Positions 13,089-64,000 of a stretch of 64,000 nucleotides of DNA are shown piece by piece. The stretch comes from Gloeophyllum trabeum ATCC 11539 (lineage: Eukaryota; Basidiomycota; Agaricomycetes; Gloeophyllales; Gloeophyllaceae). Position 1 is the first letter of the stretch. Each line of letters opens with the position of its first letter. Position numbers and translations under genes: made by a program. The DNA lies in the NCBI RefSeq assembly GCF_000344685.1, contig NW_006920410.1, forward strand, positions 1,264,414 through 1,328,413, read 5' to 3'. The notes under the pieces were generated by a model. That model saw nothing but the letters and a program-made list of their open reading frames with translations. It ran no database searches and had not been told where the DNA came from.

Positions 13089-14121
13089 CTAATTGATGAC
13101 GACGCCACCGTTGACATGGAAGACCTGTCCACTGATATAACTCGAGTCTGCGCTGGCGAGGAAAACAAACGAAGTAGCAACTTCGATTGGCTGGCCGGCG
13201 CGACCCATGGGTACCGACTGGCCGAAAGACTCTTTTGATTCTTTCGTCATTGTGGCAGGAATTAGCGGCGTCCAGATGGGACCAGGAGCCACAGCTGTTT
13301 CAAAGCGCATATAGTCAGCATCCAAGGCCGATGATAGAAATGCTGTTCACTCACCGTTGACGCGTATGCCATCACCGGCAACTTGGTTGCTCAGTGCGCG
13401 AGCTAGGCCGATCATGGCGCCCTTAGTCGCAGTGTAATCGATCAACTCAGGATGCCCGACCGCAAAGTTGATGGACGCGTTGAAAATAATGCTTCCACCG
13501 GGACCCATGTTTGGGAGAGCGGCCTTGCAGAAGTAGAAGAAGGAGTGGAGGTTGGTGTCGAACGTGTTGTGCCATTGCTCGGTTGGTAGCGTGGGGAGCT
13601 CGGTGTTGGACTCCTGGGTGCCGTGGTTGAGGACGAGGACGTCCAGTCGGCCGTGAGCCTCCAGATGCTTCTTGACAACTTCCTGGCACACTGATTCTTT
13701 GCGGACGTCGGCAGCGATGGTGACGACCTTGAGCTTGCCGCCGGTCTTGGCGTTTATGCGGGCTTCGACGTCTTTTATTTCTTTCTCCTCTTGCGGAAGG
13801 TACGTCAAAGTCAGGTCGGCACCCTCAAGAGCTATCCGTTGGTCGGATCAGCACCATTTTCAGAGGATAAAATCTCGAAACTAGCACACCATATAGGAGC
13901 GCAATGGCTCGTCCGATTCCACTGTCGCCGCCGGTGATGAGAGCTGCCTTGCCCTCTAGCTTGTTCGCAGCCTTATATGGCTTCCCGTCAGCGGTCACAT
14001 CGTCCAACGGCTGGGGGTCGAGTTTCTCCTGCAATCCAGGCGCGCCGGGCTGGTCCTGCACTGGCTGCTTGTAGCCCTTACGGAACTGCTCGAGGAGAGG
14101 GTTGTTCTTCTGCTGGGACAT
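13089..14121 (-). CDS. NAD(P)-dependent short-chain dehydrogenase, general-stress type
   Basis: A three-exon gene for a classical SDR of about 300 residues. An N-terminal extension of about 50 residues (MSQQKNNPLLEQFRKGYKQP), typical of the YhdF/YghA general-stress subgroup, precedes the Rossmann motif TGGDSGIGRA. The conserved VLNHGTQ, NASINFAVG and catalytic YTATK follow. The C-terminus has the familiar FLASADSSYISGQVFHVNGG. Introns lie near 13824-13887 and 13290-13357. The start is the ATG at 14121, about 100 bp below a TATA box. The substrate cannot be read from sequence; relatives are induced by osmotic or desiccation stress. Confidence 0.9.
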
Positions 14122-14222
14122 GGTGGAGTGTGACTGAGAGATCGCGTTGCGGATTTTCGAAAAAATGCTGGGCGAGTGTTGGGTGCAAAAGATGCTGGAG
14201 AACAGCGAAGGCAGCAAGCAGG

Positions 14223-14959: not shown

Positions 14960-17428
14960 TTACATCTTGCACCGATTACGCACTACGGAAGAACCCCAAC
15001 CCAAGGCAATGCAGGCCTCTCTGGCAGCCACCTCCTTCGCGGCTTGCTTAGTTTCTCCGGTGCCCCTACCTTTCTCTTCGCCGTTGACTGAGGTGGGATA
15101 TCTATTAGTCGACCCAATCATGGATAGTACTTCATACGTGCACGTACCCAGCGCTCTTACAGTCCATCTACCTGCATGCGGAGGTCCGTCGAAGATGGCA
15201 GGATATTGTACCTCCAGACGCCGCTGAGCCACAGTCTGATTGAGGAAAGGGAGGTAAGCTGGGGCCGGTCGTTGTGGAGGCGGCGAGGCCGGTGACGATC
15301 GCGGGGTATGTTCAGGACTCGGGGGAGTCCTAGCACGTGCATCGGGCTTATCCCAGCCAAGTCTGTGATACGCCTGTTGTGCCGCTTCTTCCTTGGCCTG
15401 CTGTTGTTTGAGCCCGCACCCTTTGCCTTGCTGAACTCCGTCAACTGTAGAATAGCATATGAGAATGATACGCGACCTTTCTTGAACTACAGGCACAAGC
15501 TCGAAACATACCAATGCAAGTAACTTCCCATATCAGTGCATGAGAAGGTCCCGAACAAACCGGGTGCCAATTGACTTCGCTATGATGTGCTGCAGCAGTC
15601 TGGTTAAATAATGCCAGATAAGAGCCTGAGGCTGCCGGTGGAGGAGTTTTCGGTCCTGACTCTTCCCCGTGTCGCGCATGATCTTCCATGGGTCGTGTAT
15701 GATCTTCACCGTGTTGTGTATGATGGGCACCATTGGTATTCAAGTTGACTGCTGGGATCATGGATATAGTTGTCTTGCATAGCTTCGGATAGGTGCCAAG
15801 GAGATTGGAGAACCTTCCGACAAGCTGCTCTTTGAGAATGGTATCCACTTCCGACGAATTGACAGACCCTATTTGATTCAAAACATCGATCAGTCTGGCC
15901 AAATCCGGTGTAATCTTCTTCGCGATGTTCACGCTGCGCTTGGGCGTTAGATTCTCCTTCACTTTGGTCTCGAGACCTTCGGTGGGAAGACTATACAGCA
16001 TCTGAAGGTCGAGCTCTGTCCTATAATCTGATAGCACCGCTAAAATATCCTTTGTGCACATTCTGGCCCGTGGCTCTTGCTTCCAGCATTTCTCGATTAT
16101 GCACCAGATTTGGTCCGGAATCGGAATATCTGCGGGGCGTTCAGGTCTTTGACGATTGAGTACCTTCTCCATGACAGCAAACTCTGCTGTATCGGGCCAC
16201 GGTACATTTCCAGTGTATATCTAAGATTTGGATTGTCCTCATGCAACATGAAATCCCGAGCAACACAGTCACTCACCTCAAGGCACACATAGCTAAAGCT
16301 ATACACATCACTCTCCGGACTCCTGGCCTTCGAAGGATCATTGCCGAGAGCAAGCTGCTCTGGGGCCATCCACTGCATGGTTCCCTTCAACGAGGTAGTC
16401 GCTGGGTAAGTACCAGGGGTATGCAGAAATTTCCCTATCCCGAAGTCTGCTATGCAGGCGTGCATTTGATCATCGATGAGAATATTTGCCTGTGACAGGG
16501 ATCAGTGATTCGCTCCCGCTGTAAGTTCATGACTGTAACTCGCCCCCTTCAGGTCACCGTGAACAAACGGCGGGTCTCGGTTATGGAGATAATGCAGCCC
16601 TTCTGCAACATCTTGGATCTGCAAGTGGAATCAGTGTATATTATATAATGTTAATGGAAAGGCGTACAAGCTGGACACGATCATGGTCTGGATGATTTTT
16701 TAAGAACTCCGTTACGTTTCCATAGTCGCTCCAAGGAGATATTAGCGATGGCTTATCTCCAAAGAGCTCCTCCATGCCAATGCCGAGGAAAGGGTATATG
16801 TTCTCATGGCGAAGTTGCCTCCAGGTGATCGCCTCGCGGTAAAATCGCTGCTATTTCGTCAGTAGTGTATGAAATGATCGGATCGTTTAACCAACCTTTG
16901 TAGCTTCGTGTTTCTCGTCGCTACGTAGTATATGCAATCTGGGTACCTTGAGCGCGACTCGAATGGTTCGATTAGTCTCGAGGAGTTTTCCCTTGAAGAT
17001 GTCGCTTGAACCGCCACCGGCAGTGTAGTGAGGCTCAGCTTCGACCCTGTGCAGAAATAGGCACGGAGGAAATATCTCATGCAATTTCACTATCTTTCGA
17101 AGCAAGTCCTCGAGCTCATGGGCATATTCGGGTTTGTCGTCGGCAACCTACAGGGATGTTAATGCTGATCCGGACCTCTATGACGAAACGACATTACCGA
17201 CTGAATTAGGTCCAAGAAGTCGTCCCGAATCTTATCTGGAAGACTAGGAATATGGTCTGCTATTGACTCGCGGCGGATGAGCTGAGGTAGATTCGTGTGC
17301 AATTGTGGATCGCTCAATCTGTGCAGCTCGAGCAAACCTGCATTTGACAGAGGAAATTAGTACCAATGCAGTCCACATATAACGGCCTAAAGGATTCACG
17401 TACCCTGTATCTCTTCCTTCAAGCCCAT
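14960..17428 (-). CDS. TKL-like protein kinase with two C-terminal dsRNA-binding domains
   Basis: A gene of about nine or more introns encoding roughly 690 residues. Exon 1 is 25 nt (MGLKEEIQG, 17428-17404). A helical N-terminal region precedes a kinase domain with gly-rich YTAGGGSSDIFKG, VALKVP lysine, FYREAITWRQL glutamate, HGDLKGANIL catalytic loop, ADFGIGKF and MAPEQ. All catalytic residues are present, but the loop is HGD, not HRD. A linker with a His-rich degenerate repeat follows (about 15630-15730). Then come two dsRNA-binding motifs. dsRBD1 runs from YLALFNQTAA through GPSHALIWEV and, after an intron at about 15450-15514, DGVQQGKGCGLK, QQAKEEAAQQAYHRLGW. dsRBD2 has YLPFLNQTVAQRRLEVQYP, GPPHAGRWTV, and after an intron VNGEEKGRGTGETKQAAKE, AAREACIALGW. 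Both keep the KxxAK...AA..AL helix. The layout recalls PKR in reverse domain order. A role in dsRNA response is inferred. Confidence 0.85.
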
Positions 17429-18045: not shown

Positions 18046-19823
18046 TCAGAAGAACCAATGATCCTTGACCAATCCTGCGCCTCTCATCATAGCCATCATT
18101 CGCTCCCATGCTTTCGCCACGGCCCCGTCTTGACGGAAATCTTGTACATATTTGCTCGGTGGCATGAGCCCCTCCGAGAATGCTGTGACCGAGCACAAAT
18201 TCTTCGCGGAAGCGCGCCTGAAGAGTTCCGCTACGAGGTTCACATCCGAGTCCTCGTCATAGACCACCTTGAAGGCTAGTGCGCTGAGCAAACGTGGCCT
18301 ATGCTCAACAGGAAGTTGCCGCAGGAACGTCTCAGCGCAATCCAAGTCGCAAGTATCGAAGAACTCCGACGAATATTCCGATATACGAATGCCCCAAAGC
18401 ATGAAGACAATGTTTTCGGCTGCAAGTCTCGCAGAGGGGTCTTGTTCCCAACAGGACTGTATCAAGGGTGCCCAGATCCTGCTTGGAACTTCGACGGGGC
18501 CGGCCGGCCTACGACCCAACAGCACCTCGTACATCACAGCCAGCTCATTCTTGAGATCTGACCACGGTGGCTTGCCCGTGTATAGCTAGGTTCATATTTT
18601 TCATACGGCTTCAGCAGCAGCGACTCTGGAGCTCACCTCAAGGCAAACACACGCAAAGCTATAAACATCGCCAGAAGGCCTTCGAACGGAGCACCATCGT
18701 GCACCCAGCATGTGGGACAACGCCTCCGGGGGCATCCACCGAAGCGACCCATTTGCAATAGACGGCGGAGAAGTCAAAGTGCACGATTCCATAAAATTAC
18801 TGATGCCGAAATCCGTGATGCAGGCACGCAGATCTGAGTCGATGAGGATGTTCGCCTGGAATGGTTAACTTCAGAAGTTAAGTAGTAAAGACAGCACTTA
18901 CGCCTTTCAGATCGCCGTGGACGAGTTTTCGATTTGGGCCGTGCAGATATGCAAGGCCCGTCGCAACATCTAGTAACTGTCCAGCCATTTGGAATCAACA
19001 ATTGCGCAGTACGACGAGGCGTTCACATACCAGCTTAAGACGATCATGGTTAGGGTTCTTTTCCAGGAACTCCATGACATTGCCATGATAGCTCCACGGC
19101 GAGACCATGCATGGCCTTTTATCAAACAAATGGTCACAAACCCCGAGGAAGGGGAAGATGTTAGGGTGTGAGAGCTGTCTCCACATCATAGCCTCACGAT
19201 GGAACTTCTGCAAGGAGGGTCAACGACTAACGGATGGAACGAGAGAGAAGGTAGTAGACCTTCTGTAGAAGGTCCTTCGTGTGGGCGTCGTATTGCTGGA
19301 ATGTTCGCAAAACTTTAAGGGCAACCAGCTTCCCGTCCAGCGTCCCCTTGAATATGTCAGCATGGCCTCCTCCGGATATTGGGAACTGGTCATCGGTCTG
19401 TACGCCAATAAGGAATAATGCTGGGTGCAGGACCCGCGATTTGTAGGCGATCCTTCTGAGGCTCGTCTCCAACCGTGTACGATCTGGACTCTGATCTGGC
19501 TCTTCATCAATCGACTGTTTGGAAGGTTACACATCACATTTACGGCGAAAACGATGCCGGTGAATCATCCTACCGACCTTCTGCAGCAAGTCCAGGATCT
19601 GGCCTATAACATGTTCAGGCAGACGTATGATACCCTCTGAGACCGAAGCCAAACTGAGGAGCGCCTGGATTCGCTGGCCTGTGGAAGCATCGTTCAGAGC
19701 AGTACTTCGACCATGAAGCACAGCTACGTCAGATAAAGTTAGCCCGAGTCTCTATTCATGCCGTAGATGATACGCCGCCCTACCTAAGAGCTCTGCAGGT
19801 GCAAGAACGTGTCCCTCGAACAT
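18046..19823 (-). CDS. TKL-like protein kinase with C-terminal eIF4G MA3-like domain
   Basis: A spliced gene of roughly 500 residues. The chosen start is MFEGHVLAPAELL at 19823; its exon splices to AVLHGRSTALNDASTGQR. The kinase domain shows SGGGHADIFKG, LVALKVLR, FHREAMMWRQL, HGDLKG followed across an intron by ANILID, ITDFGISNF and MPPEAL, with the same HGD loop as its neighbour. After the kinase C-lobe (CWEQDPSARLAAENIVFML) comes an all-helical region: CAETFLRQLPVEHRPRLL, DSDVNLVAELFRRASAKNLC, TAFSEGLMPPSKYVQDFRQD and WERMMAMMRGAGL. This order and spacing resemble the MA3 domain at the C-terminus of fungal eIF4G. The MA3 call is from memory of the family, so moderate. The true 5' end could include a further exon near 20236-20440. 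Confidence 0.8.
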
Positions 19824-63964: not shown

Positions 63965-64000
63965 ATGTCGTCTCCTGGTGAGTGCTCTGCACCCGTTACT
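63965..64000 (+). CDS. Possible start of a gene running off the right edge
   Basis: ATG TCG TCT CCT G followed by the consensus donor GTGAGTGC resembles the tiny first exons seen in UBC12 and IPP1. Only this start is visible, so the product is unknown. Confidence 0.3.
   Translation, partial: MSSPGECSAPVT

Follow-up and report, generated by a model that had tools for sequence, protein, structure and literature searches.

A described counterpart of the protein analyzed here is PKR (EIF2AK2), the vertebrate dsRNA-activated eIF2alpha kinase, in which two dsRNA-binding motifs (dsRBMs) stand N-terminal to one kinase domain. RNA contacts of a dsRBM are made by the GPxH loop and the KKxAK motif, and some dsRBMs in other systems act as protein contacts. 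In fungi, defence against dsRNA viruses is generally attributed to RNA interference (RNAi). The layout found here, a kinase followed by two dsRBMs, was not found described in the open-access literature, as far as titles and abstract openings go. As a comparison group we used the FslK kinases, a fungal group near the tyrosine kinases with lineage expansions, in which 16 of 241 members have additional domains and most have none (PMC3937382); the terms dsrm and double-stranded are both absent from the main text of that paper. The kinase studied here is compared with FslK by description.

The window, i.e. the whole 64-kb stretch of Gloeophyllum trabeum DNA analyzed, contains a kinase-dsRBM gene on the minus strand, whose stop and start codons coincide exactly with the ends of the interval 14960..17428 proposed in the initial annotation. 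By manual splicing, the gene has 9 exons (17428-17404, 17337-17198, 17147-16896, 16847-16668, 16618-16544, 16489-16277, 16220-15512, 15444-15148, and 15087-14960), 8 introns, and a 672-aa product. All introns are of the GT-AG type except one GC-AG intron (16490..16543, minus strand) directly after the HGDLKG codons, which is supported by the sequence, by gene models, and by the same residues being joined in the database protein P0001; the tandem neighbour of the gene has a GT-donor intron at this place. GC donors were observed both in the kinase gene (16543) and in the RNase III-like gene described below (L017 4762). A spliced alignment with the 672-aa model itself as the query, which tests consistency only, reproduced all eight introns. 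P0001 (source tag lgn, 664 aa), which may be either RNA-derived or a spliced gene call, matches the model up to residue 661 apart from substitutions at positions 310, 464, and 541. All eight splice junctions fall inside this matching stretch (residues 1-661), and the junction-spanning residues are identical; P0001 thus supports the gene model, short of certain RNA evidence. After the last dsRBM, it has three residues versus eleven in the model (window 14960-15000), a difference that a one-base change in the last exon would give, be it a strain difference or a sequence error.

General caution requires considering that two neighbouring genes, a kinase and a dsRBM protein, were misjoined. We consider this extremely improbable. 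Exon 7 (16220-15512) is one open frame that links the kinase C-lobe to dsRBM 1 without a break, so that the join is independent of P0001, and the same joining is seen in P0001, in P0123 of Heliocybe, and in P0002 of Jaapia. The reading as two separate genes was rejected on the open exon 7 and P0001. On the same strand, the kinase gene is adjoined by what we take, from its motif, to be a short-chain dehydrogenase-like gene (window about 13825-14130, TGGDSGIGRAIA). An Rfam scan of the 64-kb window found no family at gathering score.

The 672-aa protein comprises a helical N-terminus, a kinase domain (residues 102-356), dsRBM 1 (496-562), and dsRBM 2 (595-661). The kinase domain (PF07714; 16038..17009 on the minus strand, introns included) is complete, as originally stated, with ALK, HGDLKGANIL, ADFG, and MAPE all present in the translation. 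The HMM search that had been suggested as a check gave significant matches to PK_Tyr_Ser-Thr (PF07714, 3.7e-41), Pkinase (2.8e-32), and, in two consecutive stretches, dsrm (PF00035, 1.4e-13). Scored singly, dsRBM 1 (28.4 bits, 2.5e-6) and dsRBM 2 (33.4 bits, 6.8e-8) each exceed the curated Pfam cut-off of 23 bits, as do the corresponding domains of the Heliocybe (43.0 and 29.1 bits) and Jaapia (39.9 and 44.4 bits) kinases, six domains of six in total. Both dsRBMs of the window protein, dsRBM 1 (15353..15620, minus strand, with the intron 15511-15445) and dsRBM 2 (14996..15256, minus strand, with the intron 15147-15088), are split at the equivalent place, in phase 1 at domain residue 37, which bears out another point of the initial annotation.

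An AlphaFold2 model of P0001, built on an alignment of 14 sequences (mean pLDDT 74.7, pTM 0.57), predicts an all-helical N-terminal segment (residues 1-78; 17079..17428, minus strand; block means 89-95) and a tail folded as two dsRBMs. In particular, the helix-strand-strand-strand-helix fold is predicted complete in dsRBM 1 (496-559), and the same fold, with a first strand of only two residues, in dsRBM 2 (595-658). The linkers 374-493 and 567-590 mostly have pLDDT below 50. A Foldseek search with the full model showed general kinases in the 50 matches listed and was not informative on the dsRBMs.

The best PDB matches of the kinase domain (best 60 of 1731) are led by the plant kinase CTR1, followed by EGFR, Mer, and RIPK2. 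Since CTR1 comes first with tyrosine kinases close behind, the TKL-like assignment made at the outset fits, and the best named database matches of the whole protein are Agaricomycete kinases. Judged by its sequence, the window kinase resembles the mushroom TKL/TK-like kinases. Residues K122, E144, H219-G220-D221, N226, D239-F240-G241, and E268 are conserved in 14 of 14 rows of the alignment, which includes P0001. Exceptions to HGD occur outside these rows, namely HAD in L027 of the same genome and HGN in the second domain of P0126. As HGD is common to these mushroom kinases, the non-RD motif is no special sign of immunity.

Among solved structures, the dsRBMs of PKR match the tail best (two stretches, 4e-9 together; singly, 0.0024 and 0.052), which is the observation favouring a true PKR or eIF2alpha-kinase homologue in a fungus. 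Nevertheless, we consider such homology very improbable. The PKR kinase domain is absent from the best 60 of the 1731 PDB matches, where the kinases named above take the lead; the domain order is the reverse of that in PKR, as had been noticed initially, the kinase preceding both dsRBMs; and no significant tblastn match (best 17.3 bits, E 3.3, in a weak exon-by-exon test) was obtained to the region of a putative GCN2-type gene on contig C15 (HGTP_anticodon2, 63.8 bits), which holds an LHRDIK motif and thus reads HRD where the window kinase reads HGD. The PDB ranking and the GCN2-region comparison led us to reject PKR homology of the kinase. Of the original description of the gene as a fungal counterpart of PKR, the layout stands, a kinase and two dsRBMs being encoded in one gene, but the protein is not supported as a homologue of PKR or other eIF2alpha kinases.

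The RNA-contact residues are largely kept in dsRBM 2 and partly in dsRBM 1. In dsRBM 2 they read GPPH and TKQAAK, the latter aligned with TKQEAK of PKR dsRBM2 (1qu6). In dsRBM 1 they read GPSH and KQQQAK: Q replaces the first two lysines of the KKxAK motif, and one K is displaced by one place. Because alterations are also seen in Jaapia dsRBM 1, where the last K of the motif is E, and in Heliocybe dsRBM 2, where the GPxH loop is changed, each protein seems to have one dsRBM closer to the canonical pattern and one further from it. In the window protein, dsRBM 2 is likely to bind dsRNA, and at least this domain would be expected to recognize the A form.

The same layout was searched for in other genomes. 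Heliocybe sulcata P0123 (38% identity over 99%) has a kinase and two dsRBMs, and Jaapia argillacea P0002 (JAAARDRAFT_182669) has a kinase followed by two dsRBMs. A search with the tail (residues 505-672) retained two proteins from 1007 candidates, P0001 and Jaapia P0002, and both have the layout. The whole-protein search, capped in size, listed 98 matches from 7995 scored candidates; of these 98, two, P0001 and Heliocybe P0123, contain PF00035; Jaapia P0002 is missing from these 98, and therefore this search can miss members. The layout recurs in two other genera, and the searches made did not show it to be widespread. In Neolentinus, the 380-aa kinase model P0124 shows no dsRBM in Pfam; it may have missed a tail, as its sequence no longer follows the rest of the family towards the end of the kinase domain. 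Several mushroom kinases related to the window kinase carry other extra domains in the database listing, as real fusions or gene-model joins: PF00046 in P0130, PF00780 in P0139, and PF01926 in P0141, which we take to be homeobox, CNH, and GTPase domains, respectively. Fusions are therefore not rare in kinases of this kind.

The closest dsRBMs in the genome belong to an RNase III-like gene on the same contig, 46.5 kb from the start of the kinase gene. Its first 36 bases lie on the plus strand at the window end (63965..64000), and it continues beyond (C1:1328378 onward; L017 3379-4920). It contains two dsRBMs (5.8e-17) and a Ribonucleas_3_3 match (4.5e-7; 30.5 bits, under a curated cut-off of 35), in which the catalytic acidic residues look replaced relative to what we take to be the RNase III motifs. 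Its nearest listed relatives are from Heliocybe (77%) and Neolentinus (75%). Two whole dsRBMs are present in five of its 120 listed relatives (of 157), P0003-P0007, including those of Heliocybe, Neolentinus, and Jaapia, and one in the other 115; in two of the latter, P0117 and P0119, the single domain is interrupted near the intron position. The kinase and the RNase III-like protein are on contigs of equal listed size in Heliocybe (3,419,372) and likewise in Neolentinus (1,528,150), so the two genes probably share one contig in these species too.

Identity between the window dsRBMs and the two domains of the RNase III-like gene is 51-61%. All dsRBMs in the two genes, four of four, have a phase-1 intron at domain position 37, and each gene has one exon that covers the second half of dsRBM 1, the linker, and the first half of dsRBM 2. 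The internal duplication initially suggested for the kinase gene is consistent with its introns, but since the RNase III-like gene shares the intron position and the two-domain exon plan, the doubling may predate the join to the kinase. Because intron position and exon plan are common to both genes, capture of the tail from an RNase III-like gene already carrying the dsRBM pair appears likeliest, while the same data also support parallel duplications from one ancestor. The RNase III-like gene is a putative donor; the dsRBM tree (34 rows, 67 columns) gave no order of descent among the domains, six one-clade tests giving p from 0.05 to 0.49, none under 0.05. Terminal branches in this tree measure 0.79-6.58 for the six kinase dsRBMs, compared with a median of 0.12 across its 34 rows; decay would explain such lengths as well as an arms race would.

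Two related kinases in the genome were compared with the window gene. The tandem neighbour (18046..19697, minus strand; aligned over 18364-19697, with the stop at 18046) is a related HGD kinase with 42% identity in the kinase domain, in which no dsRBM was seen. In the other, a paralogue (L019, C11:586500-592000), some 1 kb containing stops separates the N-lobe (up to HGDLK) from the C-lobe, so that it looks interrupted, a long intron being the alternative; the genome search found no dsRBM match on C11. In a tree of 24 rows, all of them mushroom HGD-type kinases and without Jaapia's own closest kinases, the window, Heliocybe, and Neolentinus kinases cluster with the tandem neighbour and the C11 paralogue (90/90), the window kinase adjoining the latter (86/88). 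The Jaapia kinase domain, 34% identical to that of the window, falls outside this cluster, with weak attachment to an Amanita row (83/70). A clade of the window, Heliocybe, and Jaapia kinases was rejected (AU p 1.4e-7, 24 rows), as was one including Neolentinus (p 1.3e-4, 24 rows); the former was still rejected after four long or partial rows were removed (p 2.5e-5). As the Jaapia kinase does not form one clade with those of the window and Heliocybe, two origins of the fusion, in Gloeophyllales and in Jaapia, are favoured, with thin sampling. The tail may also have been gained once, long ago, and then lost in the tandem neighbour and C11 copies, in keeping with the reduced tree, where grouping Jaapia with the five-row cluster was not rejected (p 0.11). 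A window, Heliocybe, and Neolentinus clade without C11 was not rejected there either (p 0.11).

The explanation we prefer, giving it somewhat less than an even chance, is that a mushroom-type TKL-like kinase acquired a two-dsRBM tail, most likely copied from an RNase III-like gene that had such a pair already, and that dsRNA gathers the resulting molecules. At least two of them would assemble on one dsRNA, of mycoviral, transposon-derived, or endogenous origin, and the raised local kinase concentration would drive trans-phosphorylation and signalling. Such dsRNA-driven dimerisation would parallel the working of PKR, with another type of kinase and, probably, another substrate. The kinase would operate alongside the genome's RNAi genes; matches in the genome were grouped into three Piwi loci, six RdRP loci, and two Dicer-type loci with paired RNase III domains, and an RNAi route therefore probably exists. 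In favour of this explanation are the intact gene, the Pfam scores, the match of the tail to PKR, the predicted dsRBM folds, the kept catalytic residues, the layout in Heliocybe and Jaapia, and the shared intron plan; against it are the divergent RNA-contact residues, the long dsRBM branches, the Neolentinus model without a dsRBM, and the occurrence of other fusions.

Part of this contrary evidence would suit dsRBMs that serve as protein-protein or localisation modules, tethering the kinase to an RNP without being switched by dsRNA and contacting a second copy of the protein, the RNase III-like protein, or Dicer. The departure of dsRBM 1 from the usual RNA-contact residues in both the window and Jaapia proteins, together with the known protein-contact dsRBMs, speaks for this possibility; we regard it as doubtful, given that dsRBM 2 retains GPPH as well as KQxAK, which PKR dsRBM2 has too, and that two dsRBMs are kept in all three species with the layout. 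A further possibility, to which we give slightly less weight, is that the gene arose incidentally while kinases expanded rapidly in mushrooms, as an exon-capture fusion with no selected dsRNA role that is now drifting or decaying. It would account for the long dsRBM branches, the apparently interrupted C11 paralogue, and the extra domains of related kinases, and it agrees with the lineage expansion and 16 of 241 multidomain members of FslK (PMC3937382). Yet the reading frame and the catalytic residues are intact, and the full layout is kept in Heliocybe at only 38% identity, with a like layout in Jaapia.

Taken further, dsRNA-driven gathering of the kinase could mean that fungi evolved a dsRNA-activated non-RD kinase independently of PKR, perhaps twice, by way of a pseudo-RNase III tail, as a second defence arm beside RNAi. 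We consider this bolder claim unlikely, though if it were true, the kinase would be the signalling arm of mycovirus or transposon defence alongside RNAi, and fungi would possess a signalling route for dsRNA comparable to the one through PKR in animals. It would also be a case of convergent evolution with PKR in a wood-decay fungus, with a named gene on which it can be tested.

Compared with known systems, the window protein resembles one group in its kinase and another in its tail. With the Agaricomycete TKL-like kinases, it has the HGD kinase domain in common (13 other alignment rows), whereas the dsRBM tail sets it apart from these and from the FslK kinases. With the Agaricomycete RNase III-like dsRBM proteins (P0003-P0122), it shares the phase and position of the dsRBM intron, but these have an N-terminal RNase III-like domain in place of the kinase and mostly one dsRBM instead of two. 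The Jaapia protein has the same order of domains, on a kinase that is not in one clade with the window and Heliocybe kinases. Finally, PKR likewise combines two dsRBMs with one kinase domain, and its dsRBMs are clearly similar to those described here, but they are N-terminal in PKR and C-terminal in the window protein, whose kinase is of the TKL/TK-like HGD type.
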